Source: an uncultured Pseudomonadota bacterium (GTDB lineage: Bacteria; Pseudomonadota; Gammaproteobacteria; Enterobacterales; Succinivibrionaceae). Taken from it: a stretch of DNA of 39,937 bases. Positions 6,467 to 27,664 of this stretch are shown here, in pieces (the stretch's first letter is position 1; each line of letters opens with the position of its first letter). The notes beneath the pieces were generated by a model, which saw only the letters and a program-made list of their open reading frames with translations, was not told the DNA's origin and did not search any database. A program made the translations under genes and the position numbers. Location: positions 1 to 39,937 of the forward strand of contig OMYE01000047.1 in assembly GCA_900315145.1 (NCBI GenBank), read 5' to 3'.

Positions 6467-7681
6467 ATTACCTCCCTTTTTTTTCAGATTCTTCTTTTTC
6501 CTTTATGCCTGTTCATAGTCGCAGGTTTAAAGACTGTACGACCATAAAAATTTTATTTGTTTTTTTGTCTGTGACATGTCAGCAAATGTTAATTTTCAGC
6601 TCCACAGTATAGATTATTTACGTTCATATTGCACTGTAAAAATTGTCACTTACGAAGAATCAATTTTTCCCCAAAATACCCTAGCACTCCGTAAAAATAT
6701 TGAGATTACCGATTATCGTAAGCTTTAACATATATCAGGCATTTTTTTTATACATCAAAAATTACTATTTATTTTTTATAAAAAAAATCAAAACATCATT
6801 TTATAACCACTTTTCGATGATACTGATGACTTTATCTTTATTTTTATGTCTTTCTGAAAGCTGCTGATAATCTGCGGTATTTTTTTAATATAGAAAAAAA
6901 CATATTTATATCATACTTTAATAAAATTAAGAATAAACATATGCATGATAAATGACTCAGATAATAACAATATTGAATATTTTTATTTATAGTAATTCTC
7001 AGGATAACAATTTCTTTTTTTATATAGAGCATCGTCTTAAAACAATATATGTAATTCTAAAAAAGAAAATCACATTATTCAGGATTTCCCATATTACAGA
7101 ATCACGAATACAGCTTATGACAGATAAAAATGTCGGTTTAGAATAATACCTGCGGAAGGAAGACAGCAGAAGCCGAAAAAGAATCTGTTAAAGAAAACAG
7201 CAGTCAATGTTCTTTAAAAACGCAGAAAAAATCATCAGCTGCACATTTCTTCTGAGAAATGTATCATTTTTAACCAATCTATCTAATGGAGATATCGAAA
7301 TTAATGAATTAAAACTAAAGGGATTATCAGGACTGTAGTGGAATAAACTTTAGGATTGAGTTGGATAGAGATTGGCACGGAATGTGCCACGGATTTATTC
7401 TTAAGGACCTAAGACACATTCCACGAACTCTTTTTTTCAGCGAAGTCTACTGAGGTAGCTTCATACCTATTAATGAAAAATCAGTTAAAAAGAAACCTAA
7501 ACACCCAATACGTGTTTAGCATTTACATTCTAGCAAAACAGTCTCTTTAGTCAAGTCTTGGTTCAGTTATTTAATAGCTGTAATAATTTTATTTGAAGTA
7601 TCTCTTATAAAACAACGTAAAAAAATCCTAATTTCGGATAGCCCCAAAAATCTGAATTCTGATAATCAATAAAAAACTGTT
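6467..7681. other. 1.2-kb gap between pepN and the reverse transcriptase: AT-rich, with gene debris and hairpins
   Basis: 6480-6950 is very AT-rich with homopolymer runs and no gene. Protein-like scraps occur on the plus strand. A frame opening after TAG near 7140 encodes a charged tail ending SQCSLKTQKKSSAAHFF. An ATG at 7207 opens a 43-residue frame to 7338 (MFFKNAEKIISCTFLL and on) without a clear ribosome site. From about 7350 to 7520 there are several hairpins. This looks like the debris of one or more genes plus a structured RNA or terminator, and it lies downstream of the RT gene. Confidence 0.45.
7369..7440 (+). terminator. Terminator-like inverted repeat followed by T7
   Basis: GGAATGTG and CACATTCC form an 8-bp inverted repeat with a long loop, followed a few bases later by TTTTTTT. 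A nested hairpin GGCAC/GTGCC overlaps the left arm. No intact plus-strand gene lies upstream, so this may end the decayed frame at 7207-7338 or an RNA. Confidence 0.35.
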
Positions 7682-10423
7682 CTATTTTTTATTATTTCTT
7701 TCTATGATTTCATTAACCATTTTCTTCAGATTGTAGCAGGTCTTCATATATGCATCATTTATTTTCCGGTGCAGATGATGACTGTGTGAACGCATCTGTC
7801 GTCTTATGGTATTATTTTTATCATTTCCACCAAAAATTCTGGCGGCATTCATGGCGTAACTGATGAAGTTTCTATTGGATCTGAAAGAGTACACTCTGTG
7901 CAACCTTTTTACATTTGGCAAAAAAGCTCTTCTATATTTTACTTTTCCCGTTATTTTATCTATATCAGTAAGCACAAATCTGCTGACAAGATTATTTATC
8001 ATCGCCTCAAACCAGTAATCATTACTGATAGACTGATACTTGTCAGCACAGCGCCGGTTCATTCTCTCTCTAGCCTGATCCTGATATTTTTCAGGTAAAG
8101 AATCACCGGTGAAGGCGATACCATCTTTATCGTAGTATTTAACACACTCTATTTTCACTTTGTGGAGTTTATTCCTGAAAAGATAACCCGTGCTTCGCTC
8201 TTTTATTATTCTTCCTTTGATTCTTCTGCATGTACGTAAATAACTGGCTGTTACAGCTTTATCCATATTTCTGTAAAAACCGGCAATGCTTCCCTCTCTG
8301 ATCCGGACTTCTGAACCATTAAAGTAAAATCCAAGGTACTGCATAGGCAGCTTTTTAATATCAGGTGAACTGAAATCGTAAACCTGGCTCTTTGAGTACG
8401 GATTATAAAAATCCTGAATAAACGGATGCAACTTAAGCTTAAGACCTCTTTTTCTGATCTCTCCGGCAATAAATTCATAAACCTTCATAATGTCATCATG
8501 AGCTATATCTCCGACAAGCATTATATCGTCACAGTAGCGTCTGTAGAGATATCCTTTTTCTCTGGCATATGCACTGACAGCCTTATCAAAAGGTATCATG
8601 TATATATTAGACAGGATGGCGGAAATACTAAGTCCTTGTGGTATACCGCATGGAGCATCTTTATAAGCCAACCCAGGATTTTTATGAAAACTGTTGTGAG
8701 CAGCGTACTTTGGGTTCTGACTATACCATTTTCTGAATTTTCTGAAATCTCCGATACTAGTAAAATATTTTCTTAGTATCAGCCTCTCCTGGGTCGTACA
8801 AGGCTGATTATTATTGATATTTTCGGAACCAGCACCTGCTTTTACTGTGGCATTTTTTTCTGCATTGTCTGTTTTCCTGCCTTCCGCACTATCCATATAC
8901 CTGACATATTCTTCTATTTCACTACGTTCAACATAGCAGTACCGTGTCAGAGCCTTATAGATGTTGTAATGATCCGCCGGCAGTTCGTCAACACCGAGAA
9001 CTTTTTTCCATTCCTTCTTCAGGTTTTGATGATCAATACAATCAAAGAATGAAGACATATCAAATGCCAGTGCCACGCATTTATTATTATGATTTTTAAC
9101 ATACTGCACCACATCATAAACCGCCGGTATGGTTCTAAAAGAGCATTTAACACCATTGATTTCTGCAATAGGGGTATTACGATAGGCCAATACACATTCG
9201 GAAAAACCTAAATCCCTGGTATATTTCTCATAAAATTCCCCTAACATCCTGCTGTAGTGAGCAAAAACCAGAGTGTCTCTGTTAGAACACATTCTTATAG
9301 GTCTCTTTTTCACCGGACCGTTTTTCTTAAACTTAGCAATACCATCCCTGCATAATTCCTGCACCTGAGGATTGGCTGTCTCTTGCAGAGTTTTTTCATA
9401 GAAACGGAATTCTTCAATTTTTCGCTTCTGTCGGGATACTATTTCATTGGAAATCAAGGGAAGAAAGGAATGACAGGCTATTTTTTCAGGATCATTCAGC
9501 CAGTCTCTGACAGCTTTAATGTCGTCCTCTGTTTCCAGTTTTACCGGCATATCGAAATGAAAACATTTCTTTTCCTTCATAAAATATGATTTTATTGAAG
9601 GGATTTCCTTTTTAATGAATCTTAACAGTTCCCTCTTCCGGACAGTCTCAAGCTTGGATTTTTTCACCCTGCGCTCAGAGTTTCCGGAATTCACTTCATC
9701 CTTAACCAAAGAAATATCTGAAGCCTTATCACTAGATTCAGTGGAGCCTTCTTCGTCAGCACTGCCGGTGATTTTTCTGGATAAATCATCAGGTGTTTGA
9801 TTTTTTAGCCGGTATCGACCTTCTTTGGCTGTTTTTTTGAGGTAATCACTTACACATATATCTATATCCAGAATTCTTTTTAGACTATTATTTCTATCAG
9901 ATTTAATTGTATCAGCATCTGAGAAAATAGTCTCATCGAAACATTTAAGCAAACTCTTCTCTTCTTTATTCTTTATATTAACAAGCGGGTTATATTTTTC
10001 TTTCACCCCTTCATGCATTTCTTCATCCCCGAATAATTTATCAATCTGTATTTTCAGGGATAGCTCTTGTCCAAAAAAATCGTCCTGAGAAAACTTTGTA
10101 GTATCGTCAATAGCAAACAGCAATTCATCCCAGTCTTCTTCTGTAGAGGATTGATATTTATTTAAAAGATTACAAGGCTGTTTGTTGATTACTTTACTCT
10201 CCGCACTTTCATTTAAATCGGGCTGACTTTCATGCATGGTATACTGTCTAAGCTGCTTAATATGTTTACGCAGAGTCTTGATCCTGACTTTTAACCTTCT
10301 CTTAAGTTTTTTCTTGAACTTTGCTTTTAATTTGGATTTTATTTTTGATTTAAGAGTTGCTTTAGACTTATTTTTCTCTTTCTTTTTTCTTTCTAAAGAA
10401 TGATGATTGCCGTTTTTTGCCAT
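7682..10423 (-). CDS. Reverse transcriptase of the defence-associated (DRT2/UG-like) type with a long basic N-terminal extension
   Basis: RNA-templated DNA polymerase, 913 residues. Residues 1-60 are mostly Lys and Arg. Residues about 62-250 are an acidic, Ser-rich, low-complexity linker, and the RT core starts near 285. Core landmarks are KKRPIRMCSNRDTLVFAHYS (373-392), ECVLAYRN (409-416), motif A VALAFDMSSFFDCIDH (450-465), motif B GIPQGLSISAILSNI (593-607), the catalytic YCDD (630-633) with its two Asp, and MQYLGFYFNG (694-703). A basic tail with His-rich RSHSHHLHRK follows. No group II maturase, endonuclease, Cas1 or retron VTG signature was seen. From memory, the overall pattern and YCDD fit the Abi-like 'unknown group' RTs, especially DRT2, which uses an upstream non-coding RNA. 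Such RTs are usually about half this length, so the 270-residue extension is unusual. ATG 10423 is preferred over an in-frame TTG at 10462 because GGGGGCGG precedes it. Confidence 0.85.
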   Translation of the reverse strand: MAKNGNHHSLERKKKEKNKSKATLKSKIKSKLKAKFKKKLKRRLKVRIKTLRKHIKQLRQYTMHESQPDLNESAESKVINKQPCNLLNKYQSSTEEDWDELLFAIDDTTKFSQDDFFGQELSLKIQIDKLFGDEEMHEGVKEKYNPLVNIKNKEEKSLLKCFDETIFSDADTIKSDRNNSLKRILDIDICVSDYLKKTAKEGRYRLKNQTPDDLSRKITGSADEEGSTESSDKASDISLVKDEVNSGNSERRVKKSKLETVRKRELLRFIKKEIPSIKSYFMKEKKCFHFDMPVKLETEDDIKAVRDWLNDPEKIACHSFLPLISNEIVSRQKRKIEEFRFYEKTLQETANPQVQELCRDGIAKFKKNGPVKKRPIRMCSNRDTLVFAHYSRMLGEFYEKYTRDLGFSECVLAYRNTPIAEINGVKCSFRTIPAVYDVVQYVKNHNNKCVALAFDMSSFFDCIDHQNLKKEWKKVLGVDELPADHYNIYKALTRYCYVERSEIEEYVRYMDSAEGRKTDNAEKNATVKAGAGSENINNNQPCTTQERLILRKYFTSIGDFRKFRKWYSQNPKYAAHNSFHKNPGLAYKDAPCGIPQGLSISAILSNIYMIPFDKAVSAYAREKGYLYRRYCDDIMLVGDIAHDDIMKVYEFIAGEIRKRGLKLKLHPFIQDFYNPYSKSQVYDFSSPDIKKLPMQYLGFYFNGSEVRIREGSIAGFYRNMDKAVTASYLRTCRRIKGRIIKERSTGYLFRNKLHKVKIECVKYYDKDGIAFTGDSLPEKYQDQARERMNRRCADKYQSISNDYWFEAMINNLVSRFVLTDIDKITGKVKYRRAFLPNVKRLHRVYSFRSNRNFISYAMNAARIFGGNDKNNTIRRQMRSHSHHLHRKINDAYMKTCYNLKKMVNEIIERNNKK

Positions 10424-10651
10424 ACCGCCCCCGTTTAAAAGCCGTAACTGGATAACTGCCAATCTGAGATTTTTAATGAAATCTCTGCATTTCAGAATCG
10501 CGTTGTTTTTTTATTTTGCAGAAAAACAATTTTAATCGATATCAGATAGAAAAAACATGCTTTTGGTCGTAGTTTCTACGCTCTAAGACGGAAAGCTGAT
10601 ATAAACCAGTCTGAAGCTATTGACAGACTTATGGCGGGGAAATTGAACAAC
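10424..10651 (-). ncRNA. Candidate structured leader RNA upstream of the reverse transcriptase
   Basis: About 230 bases lie between the prc terminator and the RT start. Read on the minus strand they contain an AGTCTG/CAGACT stem with 10-base loop (10609-10629), a compact CGTAG-AAA-CTACG hairpin (10568-10580), T-rich stretches, and GAGATTT/AAATCTC with 6-base loop (10466-10485) just before the ribosome site. DRT2 systems are known to carry their template RNA directly upstream of the RT gene, so position and structure fit. RNA identity, ends and template function are inference. No continuous stop-free frame was evident by eye. Confidence 0.35.
10598..10626 (-). promoter_or_regulatory. Possible promoter for the RT locus
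   Basis: On the minus strand CTGTCA (4/6 of the -35 consensus), a 17-base spacer and TATATC (4/6 of the -10) are correctly placed after the prc terminator. A transcript starting here would have a leader of about 165 nt before the RT start codon. Confidence 0.3.
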
Positions 10652-10705
10652 AAAAAAAAATGACGATCAAAGCAATTCTTAGCAACCATTACTTTAACCG
10701 TCATT
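10652..10705 (-). terminator. prc terminator
   Basis: On the minus strand AATGACG pairs with CGTCATT around an interrupted inner stem (AAAG/CTTT), followed by a run of T. It separates prc from the RT locus downstream, so the RT probably needs its own promoter. Confidence 0.75.
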
Positions 10706-10762
10706 TATTCTTAACTTGTAAACCGTCTGCGAAAAAAAGTACTCCGAAACGGTTATTATTTT

Positions 10763-15317: not shown

Positions 15318-16037
15318 ATGACAGATAATATGGACAATTTTAAGGAACTGGCAGAAATAGTAATGGGCTGCCATGATGACGATTGTAATGACGGTGTTAA
15401 CGGTTCCTATAAACCACAGAGAAAGATTGAATTTTTAAAAGCAAGACTGGCTATGATCGTTGATCATGATCTTTATCAGCATGTAGGAATGGACGGAGTT
15501 CTCAGTCTGGCTACAAAACTTAACCAGCACAGTATCATGCTTTTCAGTACAGACAGTGACTTCATCAGAGATTTTACAGCTACAGCGGAAAAACTGGAAG
15601 GTCTTGCTACCTTATATGCTCCTGCAGATGACAGTCTGACAACCTTCAAGCCTATCTGTTCTCCTAAAGCTGCCAAAATCCCCAAAAATAAAGTCATGAC
15701 CCGTGATACCGATATACTGGCAAGCTTTGCAGACGAGGATCTTCTTTATACCCTGTGCGATGTTCAGGTGAAAAATGAGCTCAGTCTGATACCGCTTCCG
15801 GTAACCGATATGCTTATACTTAAAAGTATCACTACTGTCCAGCCATACGATCTCCCCCTGGCAAGACATTATCTAAAGCAGTATTCCGATGCCAAAAAAG
15901 CTCTCTCACAGGAGGATTTTGCGCTTATAAGGGAAATCAAGGAAAAGGGACTTCCTACATCAAGCGACAGTTATAACAATGAAGTACGCGCTTTCCTGAA
16001 AATAGAAAAGAAACTGTATTTGCAATACATGAACTAA
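15318..16037 (+). CDS. Hypothetical protein, 239 residues, unrecognised
   Basis: I do not recognise this protein. It has no signal peptide or membrane segment and reads as a soluble, largely helical, acidic protein. It contains a Cys/Asp cluster near the N-terminus (MGCHDDDCND, about 16-25) that could bind metal, KIEFLKARLAMIVDHDLYQ in the first quarter, a middle part with KNKVMTRDTDILASFADED, and a charged helical C-terminus (EVRAFLKIEKKLYLQYMN). The ATG follows a weak AAAGAGAG. It is monocistronic, with a promoter upstream and a terminator downstream, next to the orphan CRISPR region but with no evident functional link. Confidence 0.7.
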   Translation: MTDNMDNFKELAEIVMGCHDDDCNDGVNGSYKPQRKIEFLKARLAMIVDHDLYQHVGMDGVLSLATKLNQHSIMLFSTDSDFIRDFTATAEKLEGLATLYAPADDSLTTFKPICSPKAAKIPKNKVMTRDTDILASFADEDLLYTLCDVQVKNELSLIPLPVTDMLILKSITTVQPYDLPLARHYLKQYSDAKKALSQEDFALIREIKEKGLPTSSDSYNNEVRAFLKIEKKLYLQYMN

Positions 16038-22609: not shown

Positions 22610-24184
22610 GTGAACAGCTACTTTCTCGAATGGCGCCGGCTTCATCAGGAAAGCCTCGGTGCAAATCCCGAAAGCGGTAAATATGAGGAACACTCATGTC
22701 CGGGTTGCGGAGCCGTATTCGCATTCAAAAAGGATGAGGCATCAGTTACCTGTGTGTACTGCGGCAGCAGACTTATCCGGAAAAGCCTCGTCGAAAAAAG
22801 TCAGGTTCCCGACATAATTATTCCGTTTTACATCACTGCCGCCGAAGCTAAAGAACGTTTTCTGGAATGGGCTGATGCCCGCAAAAACTCAGAGGAAACG
22901 GCATGTCTCCGCAACAGTATCGATAAGATACAGTGCTACTACCTGCCGTACAGACTGTTCCGCGGTCCGGCGTCGGCTGTTATATACCGCGATGAAACAG
23001 ACAGAAGATATCATGTCCGGGGATTTATTGAAGGTGTCGCCGTTAATACAACCGAACAGCTGGATAACACCATTCTCAATGAAATGGAACCATTTGACTG
23101 GAGCGAAATCAAACCTTTTTCTCCGTTCTATGTCGCCGGACATCCCGTACAGATGTGCAATCTTTCCGGAGATAAAATCATTGACAGAATGAAAAGAGAA
23201 ATAGAGTTCGATTTCACTCCTCTGTGTGCTAGAATCATGCACAGTCAAAAAATCACCCTGAGAGTAAGAGACTTTGATGTTGAGTCGGTATCCGCCCTTC
23301 TGCCGGTATATTTTATTAAAGCAGGTCGTCTTACCGCCGTAATGAACGGACAGACAGGCAGAATAGCAGTCTCCACCGGAAGAACAGTATATGACTATGT
23401 CTATTATCTGAGATATATTGACCGTAATCCGCTGCCCTTTACCATTACAGCAGGTGTTGCCGGTGCGGTCTCCGGTATTACGGCTGCAACTACTACCGGA
23501 GTGCTGAGTACCGTTTCTTCAGCTGTCTTTTATATGGTAATCACTCTGCTTACCGTTATCACTGTGGCCATATGTACAGTATCCTACCGCGGTTTCAACC
23601 TGAAAGACGGCAAAAAGCAGATTATTCTCAAAACTGAATCAGCCCGAGTCTCCAGAGAGGACGGAGGATTAATCCGGGAGTTTCAGAATATTCTCAAAAA
23701 TCCTTTCAATAACACTCCGGTATTTATTGAAAAGGATGGTAATGATTCATATCCCGTGGAAATCAGATTTATTACCGCAGGCAGAGTACTCGGTTTTCTA
23801 TCTGTCTGCGCACTCTTTTTTCTTTTACCGCTGATCCTGTTTGGCGGAGTTCTCACAGCCTGCGGTATCAGCATGGAACAGAATTTATCCATTCTCTTTT
23901 TCTTAATAATGGTCACCCTTTTCTGGACGGCCGTTTCGGTATATTTCGTTATTCTCTATTTTATTCAGGTGTTTCTTATAGATGTATACGAGCGACCGCT
24001 TATATACAGAATTAATGAGGACGGTACCAGAGAGTTCATTAAACAGAAAAATAAAACCGGACTGTCTCTTTTCAGAATATTTTCAAGAGAAAGCATGGCC
24101 CGGGTAAATAAGGGCTTCGGCTCCATGATTATTCTTCTGCTGATTTTTTCTCTTGGCATTGCTGTGAAGCATCTGATTAGTTAA
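22610..24184 (+). CDS. Zinc-ribbon membrane protein (TFIIB-type ribbon); real start uncertain
   Basis: From GTG 22610 the product is 524 residues. Residues about 29-55 are a zinc ribbon (CPGCG ... CVYCG). A soluble domain follows, then membrane segments near 275-325 and two near 390-460, and a final one at the C-terminus (MIILLLIFSLGIAV). The frame is open upstream to 22523 and encodes another half-ribbon, YRCESCGSLTDIAG, which GTG 22610 would cut off. GTG 22610 has no proper ribosome site, and no ATG, GTG or TTG lies in frame before it. ATG 22482, after AAAAGGAAAG, is out of frame; one extra base near 22523 would join it to the body. So the N-terminus looks frameshifted. Function is unknown; such proteins are often annotated as TFIIB-type zinc-ribbon proteins. 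Confidence 0.75.
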   Translation: MNSYFLEWRRLHQESLGANPESGKYEEHSCPGCGAVFAFKKDEASVTCVYCGSRLIRKSLVEKSQVPDIIIPFYITAAEAKERFLEWADARKNSEETACLRNSIDKIQCYYLPYRLFRGPASAVIYRDETDRRYHVRGFIEGVAVNTTEQLDNTILNEMEPFDWSEIKPFSPFYVAGHPVQMCNLSGDKIIDRMKREIEFDFTPLCARIMHSQKITLRVRDFDVESVSALLPVYFIKAGRLTAVMNGQTGRIAVSTGRTVYDYVYYLRYIDRNPLPFTITAGVAGAVSGITAATTTGVLSTVSSAVFYMVITLLTVITVAICTVSYRGFNLKDGKKQIILKTESARVSREDGGLIREFQNILKNPFNNTPVFIEKDGNDSYPVEIRFITAGRVLGFLSVCALFFLLPLILFGGVLTACGISMEQNLSILFFLIMVTLFWTAVSVYFVILYFIQVFLIDVYERPLIYRINEDGTREFIKQKNKTGLSLFRIFSRESMARVNKGFGSMIILLLIFSLGIAVKHLIS

Positions 24185-24712: not shown

Positions 24713-27664
24713 ATGTGGGTTATCTATTCCATCGGCGACAGCAGTTTTCTGTCAGCTATTCTGACCTCTCTTGCCATGTTCTTTAACAGTAGCATTCCTG
24801 ATTCTTTAGCTGCCATCGGACTGCTTGCCGGACTTATCTACCAGGGATTTTACGGAGCCGCCTCCGGACGAGGCATAGCCTTCGGAAAAATGCTTATAGC
24901 CGCTCTTTTCTACCTGCTTTTTCTGGTGCCGCAGACATCGGTAAACGTACATGACTGCTATACCGGCACGGATACCAAGGTTGATCATGTACCTTTGGGA
25001 CCAGCTGCCATGGGGGCGGTAATCTCAGGACTCGGCCACCATATCTCCGGCTATATCGATGAGGCCTTTTCCCTGCCTGATTATGACGGAGGCAGTTATA
25101 TTTCAGCAATATCGGAACTTAACGGCGTCAGAAAAAGAATAACCGATTTGGCCAGGCTCGAGAGTATTAATAATATTGCCGGTGGCGATTTCAGCAGATC
25201 CTGGCTCAATTATTTCCGTGAATGCACCCAGATTGGTATCGATCTGGGCCTCATTGACGAAAAAAATCTTTTCGGCAGCCGGAATATTCTCTCCGGCGCA
25301 GCCTTTAAGTCAGCAAACTACGGAACAGCCGTTTATCTTGAAGGGAAGGAGGAGCTCCTCACCTGTACGGAAGCCTACACCAGACTTGTAAATCACACCA
25401 AGGCACACTACATTCCGGAGATGCTGGATGCCATGGACGGTACCGAGACCTACGATGATAATCTGGCAGATAAAAAAGGCGCCCCGGGAGGTCACTCCTA
25501 CCGTCAGAGAGTAAACAGTGCACTCCATGCACTGGGACTTGTTAATACCAGACTTGAGGATTACGTTATCTCCACGGTACTGCTCCCGGTATATATCCGG
25601 GCGGCCCGGCACAAATATCTCGATGAACAGGCGGCAGGCTCCGCCCTGATGCTTAATCAGCTCATCAACCGGCGCAATACGGAAAACAGCATCCGACAAA
25701 GCATGTTTTTTACCATGGTGCGCCCGCTCCTTACGTTTTTCGAAGCGCTTGTTTTCATGTTCACTCCGTTTATGCCGCTTATAATCATGGTCTGCGGAGA
25801 CAATTTCAAAATACTGGGTAAATACTTTGCCGTACTGGCCTGGGTGGAACTCTGGCATCCTCTCATGACCATGATAAATCTCTACCTTGTCATGGCCGCC
25901 TCAAGAACTCTTTCATCACTTACAGTCCCGTTAACCAGCTTTGCCGGAGTTACGGCCTTAGAAAGAGAACTGGAGAACTACCTGTCACTCGGCGGATATC
26001 TTGCCACCTCAGTGCCTATGCTTGCCATGATGCTTTTATTCGGAACCACCTCTGTTCTAAGTTCAATCACCGGTGATGCAACCGGATCCTCATCAGGAAG
26101 CAGTCCTGTTCCGGAACTAACACAGCATGAACCGGTACTAAAACATGGTTCGGTATTTACCGCCTCCCAGTCAGGAGGCATGAGCCGCTCCGGCTCGGAA
26201 GGAATTCTGCCATCACTGTCATTAACCAGCAGCTATAAGGAGGCCTTAAGCAATGCTGAATCTAAGGCTGAGAGCGCCGAAGAGACTTTTGGCAGTCTTA
26301 TAGGCAGAAGCACAGCTTCATCAAAAAACGAATCCCTCACTCTAAACCGCGTAACCACCGAAGGCATGCGTGTTCAGAGCAGTACCGCTGAAAGCTCAGC
26401 CATGATCAACGGTCTCGCCAGAAGTGTGGCCCTCAATAACAATCTGAGCTCGGCTGATGAAAACTCCCTTCGAGGAGCTTTATCCATGATGTTAAACGGT
26501 CAGGCAGACTTGCCCGGCAGTCTGAATACTTTAGCTCAACTATCATCGGGAAACAGTTCATCGGTAAGTATCAGTCAGCTTAATTCCGAACTGCAGAGAA
26601 TATCGGGAGATGCGGGTCTGCGGGCTGAGTACAATCAGGCTCTTGCGCGAGACATCAGCTCCGGAAAAGTTGAATCAAGCACTTTCAGCGACAGTGAAAC
26701 GGAACGCCGGGAAATAAGCCGTGCGGCAAGAGAGGCAGTAAGCACCAGAAAAACAGCCGATCGCCTGAAATCTATCGATACCGCCATGAGCGGCGGCTAC
26801 CGGCTTGACGGCATATCCGTATCTAAAGCTGTATCTAAAAGTCCGGAGGCCATGTCCGCCCTGCGCAGCCGTCTCGCTGAAGACCCGGAACTCCTTAAAA
26901 GAACCCGGGACCTCTCTCCGGTTATGGAAAGTATTCTTCCGGATCGCACTCAGGCGGAAGCTGCCAGCGGCCTGCGGGCATTATTAGAAAAGCATCCTGT
27001 AGAGGCTATGGATATTATCAGGGAGGCTCTGGATATTCAAAATGAGTTTTCAGGAGAACCGGTGAGTGACATTTCCGGATACAGCGGAAACACTGCCGGA
27101 CTGCCTGCAGACATTCCTTTGGAGAACGACCGGCCGCTTTCCGGAAATACCGGAGCCTACGGATATAAAACCGGGGATAATATTCCTGCCGGAAATTACG
27201 GCTACGGAGATGATTCCTATATAAGAAATCACTATGAAAAGGCAAGAAACAGAATCAATGAAAGATTAAGAAACAACGATGACAGTTCAGGTAAAACAGG
27301 GACTGAAGTTCCTGATACCCCGGCTGTTTCCTCCGGGAATGACCGTTTCCTTGCCGATAAAGTGCGTCATCTCTCTCCCGGAGGCGCCGGGGAGAGACTC
27401 ACGGATAGTCCTCATTTACGCGGCGGATATGCCGCAGTCAAATACGGACTGGAACACGGTCTCACCTCTGCACAGGCTACTGTTTTTGCCTATTATACAA
27501 ATGATATGGAACCGCGTGAGGAGGATTTACGAATACTGAAGGCTGAATCAGGTGAGCATTTCGACAGTATAAATAAACGCCTGTCCATGGGCGGAAAAGA
27601 GGCTCTTGCTGAGGTTGCCGGATTCAACCGGGCACTTTCTGCTAAGAGTCCGGGTTCGCATTAA
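24713..27664 (+). CDS. TraG-like conjugal transfer / mating-pair stabilisation protein, isolated
   Basis: 983 residues, similar in length to F-plasmid TraG (about 940). The N-terminal half has the TraG_N layout: membrane segments near 10-28, 33-50 and 58-78, then PQTSVNVHDC and KVDHVPLGPAAMGAVISGLG (in F TraG, a TSVQIIDN-type and DNVPVGLA-type stretch), a periplasmic domain (FRECTQIGIDLG), and a second membrane cluster near 330-455 (MFFTMVRPLLTFFEALVFMF, WVELWHPLMTMINLYLVMAA). The C-terminal half is a long Ser/Ala-rich coiled region (about 460-983), which in F TraG is the mating-pair-stabilisation and entry-exclusion-related part. No other type IV secretion gene is in the window, so it is alone. 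GC is higher than in the left half. Start ATG 24713 has GGAG about 11 bases upstream. Confidence 0.8.
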   Translation: MWVIYSIGDSSFLSAILTSLAMFFNSSIPDSLAAIGLLAGLIYQGFYGAASGRGIAFGKMLIAALFYLLFLVPQTSVNVHDCYTGTDTKVDHVPLGPAAMGAVISGLGHHISGYIDEAFSLPDYDGGSYISAISELNGVRKRITDLARLESINNIAGGDFSRSWLNYFRECTQIGIDLGLIDEKNLFGSRNILSGAAFKSANYGTAVYLEGKEELLTCTEAYTRLVNHTKAHYIPEMLDAMDGTETYDDNLADKKGAPGGHSYRQRVNSALHALGLVNTRLEDYVISTVLLPVYIRAARHKYLDEQAAGSALMLNQLINRRNTENSIRQSMFFTMVRPLLTFFEALVFMFTPFMPLIIMVCGDNFKILGKYFAVLAWVELWHPLMTMINLYLVMAASRTLSSLTVPLTSFAGVTALERELENYLSLGGYLATSVPMLAMMLLFGTTSVLSSITGDATGSSSGSSPVPELTQHEPVLKHGSVFTASQSGGMSRSGSEGILPSLSLTSSYKEALSNAESKAESAEETFGSLIGRSTASSKNESLTLNRVTTEGMRVQSSTAESSAMINGLARSVALNNNLSSADENSLRGALSMMLNGQADLPGSLNTLAQLSSGNSSSVSISQLNSELQRISGDAGLRAEYNQALARDISSGKVESSTFSDSETERREISRAAREAVSTRKTADRLKSIDTAMSGGYRLDGISVSKAVSKSPEAMSALRSRLAEDPELLKRTRDLSPVMESILPDRTQAEAASGLRALLEKHPVEAMDIIREALDIQNEFSGEPVSDISGYSGNTAGLPADIPLENDRPLSGNTGAYGYKTGDNIPAGNYGYGDDSYIRNHYEKARNRINERLRNNDDSSGKTGTEVPDTPAVSSGNDRFLADKVRHLSPGGAGERLTDSPHLRGGYAAVKYGLEHGLTSAQATVFAYYTNDMEPREEDLRILKAESGEHFDSINKRLSMGGKEALAEVAGFNRALSAKSPGSH

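Follow-up and report, generated by a model that had tools for sequence, protein, structure and literature searches.

An enlarged DRT2-family reverse transcriptase in Ruminobacter and a structured RNA gene downstream of it, a candidate relocated DRT2 non-coding RNA

Introduction

The closest described system to the one considered here is DRT2 (UG2) of Klebsiella pneumoniae, an antiphage system in which a 425-aa reverse transcriptase (RT) is accompanied by a 280-nt non-coding RNA (ncRNA) encoded upstream, apparently under one promoter common to both (PMC11100668). In its structure (9c0i), an insertion in the fingers provides the docking site for the ncRNA 5' handle, and a long thumb binds the 3' part (PMC12039810). 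The present analysis concerns a 39,937-nt contig (OMYE01000047.1 of assembly GCA_900315145.1; hereafter "the window", meaning this whole stretch of DNA) from an uncultured rumen bacterium of the genus Ruminobacter. It encodes a DRT2-family RT of 913 aa, and directly downstream of the RT lies a structured RNA gene of ~155 nt, preceded by its own promoter-like site.

Two further kinds of system resemble the locus in part. In DRT3 the ncRNA is also encoded downstream of the RT genes (PMC13174585), but there are two RTs. In DRT10 (UG17) and DRT9, the ncRNA templates repeats that do not code for protein, and these systems suggest that a DNA product can itself act (PMC12632851), as is proposed below; DRT10 also requires a SLATT protein. 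With regard to DRT2 itself, Tang et al. describe annotation of the Neo protein as more challenging in divergent clades and other mechanisms as possible (PMC11100668), and according to Wilkinson et al. the ccDNA (concatemeric complementary DNA) made across diverse DRT2 systems can be expected to differ considerably (PMC12039810). Among the titles and abstract openings covered by our literature search, no report of a downstream ncRNA or an enlarged DRT2 was found.

The reading that we favour, and hold to be probable by a modest degree, is that a small segment, probably acquired, carries a module of two parts, namely (i) an enlarged DRT2 RT, and (ii) a separately transcribed RNA of ~155 nt descended from the DRT2 ncRNA.

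Family assignment of the reverse transcriptase

The RT gene and its core motifs are located as follows:

7682..10423, minus strand: DRT2-family reverse transcriptase, 913 aa (profile, tree and fold)
9029..9064, minus strand: motif A, FDMSSFFDCIDH (read in the translation)
8633..8647, minus strand: GIPQG (read in the translation)
8525..8536, minus strand: catalytic YCDD (read in the translation)

The ATG start at 10423 is preceded by a GGGGG run; an alternative TTG at 10462 would give a protein of 926 aa. The only Pfam match was RVT_1 (E 0.001). The PADLOC Drt2 profile PDLC03757 matched the RT at 1.2e-100, with UG17 as the runner-up (1e-23) and DRT3a at 2.2e-16, which sets the protein apart from DRT3a. 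A sequence search of the PDB returned three distinct sequences, two of which carry the name Drt2 in one or more entries, while the third aligns to the RT almost identically to the first. The full-length AlphaFold2 model (nine-sequence input; mean pLDDT, the predicted local distance difference test, 56.8) was used for a fold search, in which the DRT2 ribonucleoprotein (RNP) 9c0i ranked first (E 1.6e-13; template modelling score 0.66 by target) and DRT9 was a far weaker match (2e-6).

A tree of 27 rows was constructed with outgroups labelled by profile as group II intron, retron, DRT3a and UG17 RTs; neither DRT9 nor diversity-generating retroelement RTs are among the rows, and the DRT3a and retron outgroups sit on long branches whose placement may be wrong. 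A branch with support of 100/99 separates all 18 DRT2 rows from the rest, and the group II intron, retron, DRT3a and UG17 (DRT10) rows form branches separate from the window RT. The window RT, its relative in R. amylophilus and that in the metagenome-assembled genome (MAG) RUG12740 group together as a clade (100/99), with a compact DRT2 protein of 572 aa from genome G051 as its sister (100/99); G045 and G036 also have long forms, which are placed on a branch apart from it. The window RT thus belongs to the DRT2 (UG2) family by profile, tree and fold, and it has the YCDD motif and a DRT2-type thumb in common with the K. pneumoniae enzyme. The first-pass annotation, made from the sequence alone, had named DRT2 as the closest family on the strength of YCDD and a compact single-gene layout, and had listed motif A, GIPQG and YCDD in the core; all three motifs are present, and the placement with group II intron or retron RTs that would have spoken against that assignment was not seen in this tree. 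As a minor point, the match reported in G051 (L050) contains one TGA.

A structured RNA gene downstream of the RT

Comparison of the flanks of the three clade RTs revealed an RNA gene in the window (one copy), R. amylophilus (two copies) and RUG12740 (one copy), with E values from 8e-13 to 2e-9. The first copy begins 159, 94 and 74 nt past the RT stop in the window, R. amylophilus and RUG12740, respectively. The window copy comprises:

7368..7522, minus strand: structured RNA gene of ~155 nt, proposed relocated DRT2 ncRNA (flank comparison, covariation, covariance model R2)
7527..7554, minus strand: promoter-like TTGACT-16-TAGAAT with TG before the -10 element (same place in the other RNA copies)
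7497..7519, minus strand: 5' hairpin P1, proposed DRT2 5' handle, with a longer loop than in the other copies (alignment, handle model R3)
7423..7495, minus strand: variable centre of 73 nt, proposed template region (alignment)
7373..7422, minus strand: 3' stem-loop P3 with the conserved stretch CTTAGGTCCTTAAGAATAAATCC (alignment, covariation)

The same order (promoter-like site, 5' hairpin, variable centre, 3' stem-loop) was found in all four copies. The -35 element is TTGAC-like (weak in RUG12740) and TAGAAT is present in each copy, though promoter-like sites taken alone are no more frequent in the region than in shuffles (10 versus 7.5). The compact single-gene layout assumed in the first-pass annotation therefore does not describe this locus. 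No Rfam family matched the RNA at gathering score.

The structure is supported by covariation. In the four-copy alignment, 11 of the 31 pairs have changed on both sides yet remain paired, and 93.5% of cells are paired, compared to 28-49% in slid registers. On four of five measures none of 500 shuffles reached the value of the real alignment; on the fifth, pair types, 69 of 500 did. Conservation is uneven: identity between copies is 78-92% in P3 and 57-91% in P1, but 39-52% in the centre, and the DRT2 template is also described as poorly conserved between conserved ends (PMC12039810). The centres measure 73, 71, 77 and 81 nt, against 111-144 nt in control DRT2 loci; they do not agree modulo three, and there is no cDNA frame that all four copies keep open through the whole centre. 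On these grounds a Neo protein is unlikely, and the product of the downstream RNA is probably not Neo.

A telomerase-like A-B-A' arrangement in the P3 loop was considered and rejected. Both R. amylophilus copies have TCTTAGGT followed by TCTT (the first at L048 6127-6138), a match near chance when taken alone; RUG12740 has three matching bases, and the chance is ~0.28 for a shuffled loop. The pattern resembles DRT10 templates.

Search for a canonical ncRNA and a neo template

The locus could instead be an ordinary neo-type DRT2 system whose ncRNA, upstream of the RT or internally overlapping it, is too divergent to be recognised, with the downstream RNA as an accessory. This was addressed with a scan for neo templates based on PMC12039810, which requires (i) a segment between repeated triplets, (ii) a length divisible by three, (iii) a stop-free frame in the circularised cDNA, and (iv) a TTGACA-16/18-TATAAT promoter rebuilt at the junction (maximum score 12). 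The controls were 19 other DRT2 loci; L066 was counted with L057 (same contig), and L058 and L071 (partial, lacking the RT start) and several plasmid matches were left out. Fourteen controls scored 11-12, several of these being closely related, and five scored 10 (Psychrobacter L063, A. lwoffii L084, L081, G161 and L073). Since the maximum of 40 shuffles per locus was itself 9 to 11, a score of 10 is uninformative and 11 merely suggestive.

Within 400 nt upstream of the RT the best scores were 9 in the window, 8 in R. amylophilus, 8 in RUG12740, 7 in G045, 7 in G036 and 9 in G051. A scan anchored on the window RT core gave at best 10. On the RT strand, no candidate reaching 11 was found in 5.4 kb around the window RT, compared to 1.1 expected from shuffles; thus no neo template upstream, within the extension or downstream exceeded shuffles in the window. 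A few candidates at 11 occur in R. amylophilus, G045 and G036, away from the expected place. In G051 the neo signature and the downstream RNA are both missing.

A covariance model of the 3' domain of the canonical ncRNA (R1; 12 sequences, no pseudoknot included) recovered the held-out loci L072 (1.2e-6), L080 (2.3e-6) and L064 (0.019), and missed L063, L060, L073 and A. lwoffii (L084). The upstream flanks of the window, R. amylophilus and RUG12740 RTs have nothing in common better than E 0.1, which contrasts with the values obtained for the downstream RNA. A folding scan proved a poor detector, with one of three control loci lacking any segment at z < -1.8. It found a strong fold 420-600 nt before the R. 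amylophilus RT and z values of -2.7 to -2.9 at +720 to +940 within the window RT open reading frame (ORF); the stable fold upstream of the window RT was rejected as an ncRNA, its signal being mostly a terminator-like hairpin.

The neo template was looked for and not found, and the system is not classed as a neo-type DRT2; neither a junction promoter nor a common frame comparable to those of K. pneumoniae DRT2 was detected. The known form of the DRT2 ncRNA appears to be absent from the window locus. Some observations favour a hidden canonical ncRNA all the same: five other DRT2 loci also score just 10, four of them (not L081) were missed by R1, Neo annotation is harder in divergent clades (Tang et al., PMC11100668), and TGTCAA, the -35 element when read in the sense of the ncRNA, is present upstream of the window RT. 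Weighed against the lack of candidates around the RT and the unrelated upstream flanks, they leave a divergent neo-type system unlikely, though deserving some weight.

Resemblance to the DRT2 5' handle and co-occurrence with the RT

Another possibility is that the downstream RNA is not the partner of the RT, being either a small RNA in its own right or one that belongs to a different mobile element travelling with the RT. Two observations lean this way: the second R. amylophilus copy lies 840 nt past the RT stop, beyond a Cys_rich_CPCC gene (L048:6338-6682, between the two copies), and the resemblance to the DRT2 ncRNA is confined to the 5' hairpin. The distribution of the RNA argues otherwise. 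Among 56 genomes of the bacterial family, the RNA signature occurs without mismatch in three, exactly those with a clade RT; the probability of this coincidence is 1/C(56,3)=3.6e-5, a figure to be read with the caveat that the genomes are not independent. A single site with two mismatches is present elsewhere in the window's genome, in surroundings that by eye are unlike the RNA. A covariance model of the downstream RNA (R2) gave 144-159 bits for the four copies in the family genomes and 24.8 bits for the next site; in 394 genomes of the order, no genome beyond these three passed E 0.01. Both counts include the sequences used to build R2. Thus, in neither set was there a strong copy without a clade RT. 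Order and orientation of the RT and RNA genes are also kept in all three genomes, even though the genomic position of the RT differs between the window and R. amylophilus.

The start of the RNA offers a possible link to DRT2. R2 weakly matched the canonical ncRNA of G556, beginning at its 5' handle (0.016 among 16 sources). In seven distinct contigs the canonical handle consists of TG, a 7-bp stem beginning with C, the loop TGNAGN and G. Both R. amylophilus copies carry this motif and RUG12740 has TA for TG, so that a 7-bp stem with the TGNAGN loop is found in three of the four new copies; the window copy and the remaining canonical loci have variant handles. The motif was written after both groups had been seen, and it has no further sites in 26 loci (355 kb, both strands) and none in 11.7 Mb of shuffled sequence. 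As a less biased test, a handle model (R3) was built from eight canonical handles only and searched with filters off over 4.6 kb per locus. The hairpin of the new RNA ranked first in all three loci, the two R. amylophilus copies taking ranks 1 and 2 (E 0.0046 and 0.0078). Taken together, these first ranks, weak in two of the loci, suggest that the downstream RNA starts with a handle of DRT2 type. With the distribution and the conserved gene order, this leaves an RNA unconnected with the RT rather improbable. We propose that the downstream RNA is a relocated, shortened DRT2 ncRNA. In one DRT3 locus (L109), R2 found nothing.

Enlargement of the RT

Three of the added regions of the protein are located as follows:

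10235..10402, minus strand: Lys/Arg-rich region, residues 8-63, modelled as one helix (composition, model)
9665..10234, minus strand: low-confidence, probably disordered linker with acidic excess, residues 64-253 (composition, model)
7919..8221, minus strand: thumb insert, residues 735-835, absent from compact DRT2 proteins (landmark alignment)

The N-terminal extension is real coding sequence. A run of 285 open codons has p ~2e-11 for DNA of this composition, and 19 and 42 stops interrupt the two alternative frames of the same strand. The codon score is -0.03 bits per codon in frame; the two alternative frames score -0.92 and -1.41, and those of the opposite strand -0.51 to -0.98. In the 779-aa RT relative of R. 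amylophilus DSM 1361 the conserved HFD is at residue 176; its position is 289 in the window RT and 15-20 in six compact DRT2 proteins. As the R. amylophilus protein is also extended, the window extension is not an assembly join.

The first-pass annotation had already singled out the extension as unusual and had allowed for a misassembled neighbouring gene, which the R. amylophilus relative contradicts. Its 60-residue Lys/Arg block is confirmed by composition (27 Lys/Arg and 3 Asp/Glu in residues 1-65). The acidic Ser-rich linker that it described does have an acidic excess and 22 Ser in residues 66-270, but with 43 Asp/Glu against 35 Lys/Arg it is of mixed charge and not purely acidic. The structure prediction that it called for, made at full length, gave the basic helix followed by the probably disordered linker (pLDDT < 50 across residues 61-253). 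Homologues with an extension exist in kind only: the extension is common to the window, R. amylophilus and RUG12740 RTs, yet residues 1-284 matched neither of the other two in a search of the 56 family genomes (best other match 9e-4), while the R. amylophilus and RUG12740 proteins have a segment in common with each other. The extension passed no Pfam cut-off, and its PDB sequence matches were at E 0.2 or worse. Since the G045 and G036 proteins with long N-termini sit on another branch, extensions probably arose more than once. Finally, the His/Arg-rich tail of the first-pass annotation corresponds in the alignment to the C terminus that other DRT2 proteins also have.

The enlargement is not solely N-terminal. 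Measured between conserved landmarks against the compact DRT2 protein of L057, the window RT has inserts of (i) ~25 residues in the fingers (P312 to R374, 62 versus 37), (ii) ~50 residues between motif A and GIPQG (128 versus 80), and (iii) ~90 residues in the thumb (155 versus 67). The fingers and thumb inserts are a property of the whole clade. K. pneumoniae DRT2 binds its RNA through the fingers and thumb, so the enlargement includes parts of the protein that contact RNA there. With these regions retained, and the clade lying inside DRT2, whose studied members are RNA-templated (PMC12039810), an RT that dispenses with an ncRNA template (a mode of action reported for certain other UG RTs) and replaces the RNA with its basic extension is very improbable, despite the presence of the extension and inserts and the failure to find a canonical upstream ncRNA.

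UG17 (DRT10) RTs of the same bacterial family are also long: L028, L012 and L013 (G003, G027 and G011, respectively) encode proteins of 642-684 aa, compared to a profile of 429 positions, with no further Pfam domain above cut-off.

Proposed mechanism

According to the two-part module reading, the downstream RNA would be transcribed from its own promoter. The enlarged fingers would receive its 5' handle and the enlarged thumb its 3' stem-loop, assisted by the basic N-terminal helix, to give a resting RNP. Upon phage infection the RT would copy the short variable centre, perhaps repeatedly via template jumping as in DRT2, and the product might act as DNA or as another RNA, probably not via a Neo protein. 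A DNA or RNA product is suggested by a centre that has no common reading frame and by the lack of a neo-type junction promoter.

Several results weigh against the relocated ncRNA. The downstream RNA was not found beside the long forms of G045 and G036 or in the compact sister G051. R1 gave no match near the window RT, its best site in the window lying elsewhere (E 0.09); as R1 covers the 3' domain, only the 5' handle ties the RNA to DRT2, and as R1 misses divergent DRT2 loci, its null result leaves room for a divergent upstream ncRNA. The first-ranked R3 hits in the window (E 0.42) and RUG12740 (E 0.13) are not significant alone, and with default filters none of the new copies was found, whereas the held-out canonical handle of L061 was recovered (0.013). 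The window RNA folded singly is not unusually stable (z -1.6 to -1.8), and the structure therefore depends on covariation among four copies from three genomes of one family. In addition, two of the four copies have a single cDNA frame that stays open through the centre; the remaining two have none.

A more far-reaching proposal, which we hold tentatively and not as the expected outcome, is that this branch of DRT2 has dropped de novo gene synthesis: the ncRNA would have moved behind the RT under its own promoter, with a non-coding template of at most ~70-80 nt, the protein would have been rebuilt, and the effector would be the cDNA or a transcript. The locus would then be a concrete case for a DRT2 system working without making a gene. 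This question is directly testable because the RT and the RNA gene are both defined and a relative is present in a cultured type strain. The branch may make a DNA product unlike that of the well-studied DRT2, and an ncRNA search confined to the upstream regions of DRT2 would overlook it.

Genomic context

The RT lies in an enlarged interval between two genes:

6467..10762, no strand assigned: pepN-prc interval carrying the RT, 4296 bp (comparison with congeners)

The corresponding gap is 310-315 bp in three congeners (G001, R. amylophilus and G003), and the 4296-bp stretch is therefore most simply read as an acquired segment. The R. amylophilus RT is at a different genomic place, after a gene encoding a protein kinase fused to DUF6273 (L048:608-2995). 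A single scan of genome contigs for clade RT relatives returned R. amylophilus and RUG12740 only. Neither a clade RT relative nor the exact RNA signature was found in viral contigs, and in a plasmid scan with the RT as query 28 records matched, none covering 80% of the query.

Elsewhere in the window, the 983-aa protein encoded at 24713-27664 contains a TraG_N domain, an indication of a conjugative element. Two ORFs, at 15318-16037 (239 aa) and 22610-24184 (524 aa), gave no Pfam match. A very stable hairpin followed by nine T (10652-10703, minus strand) lies after prc and is probably the prc terminator.

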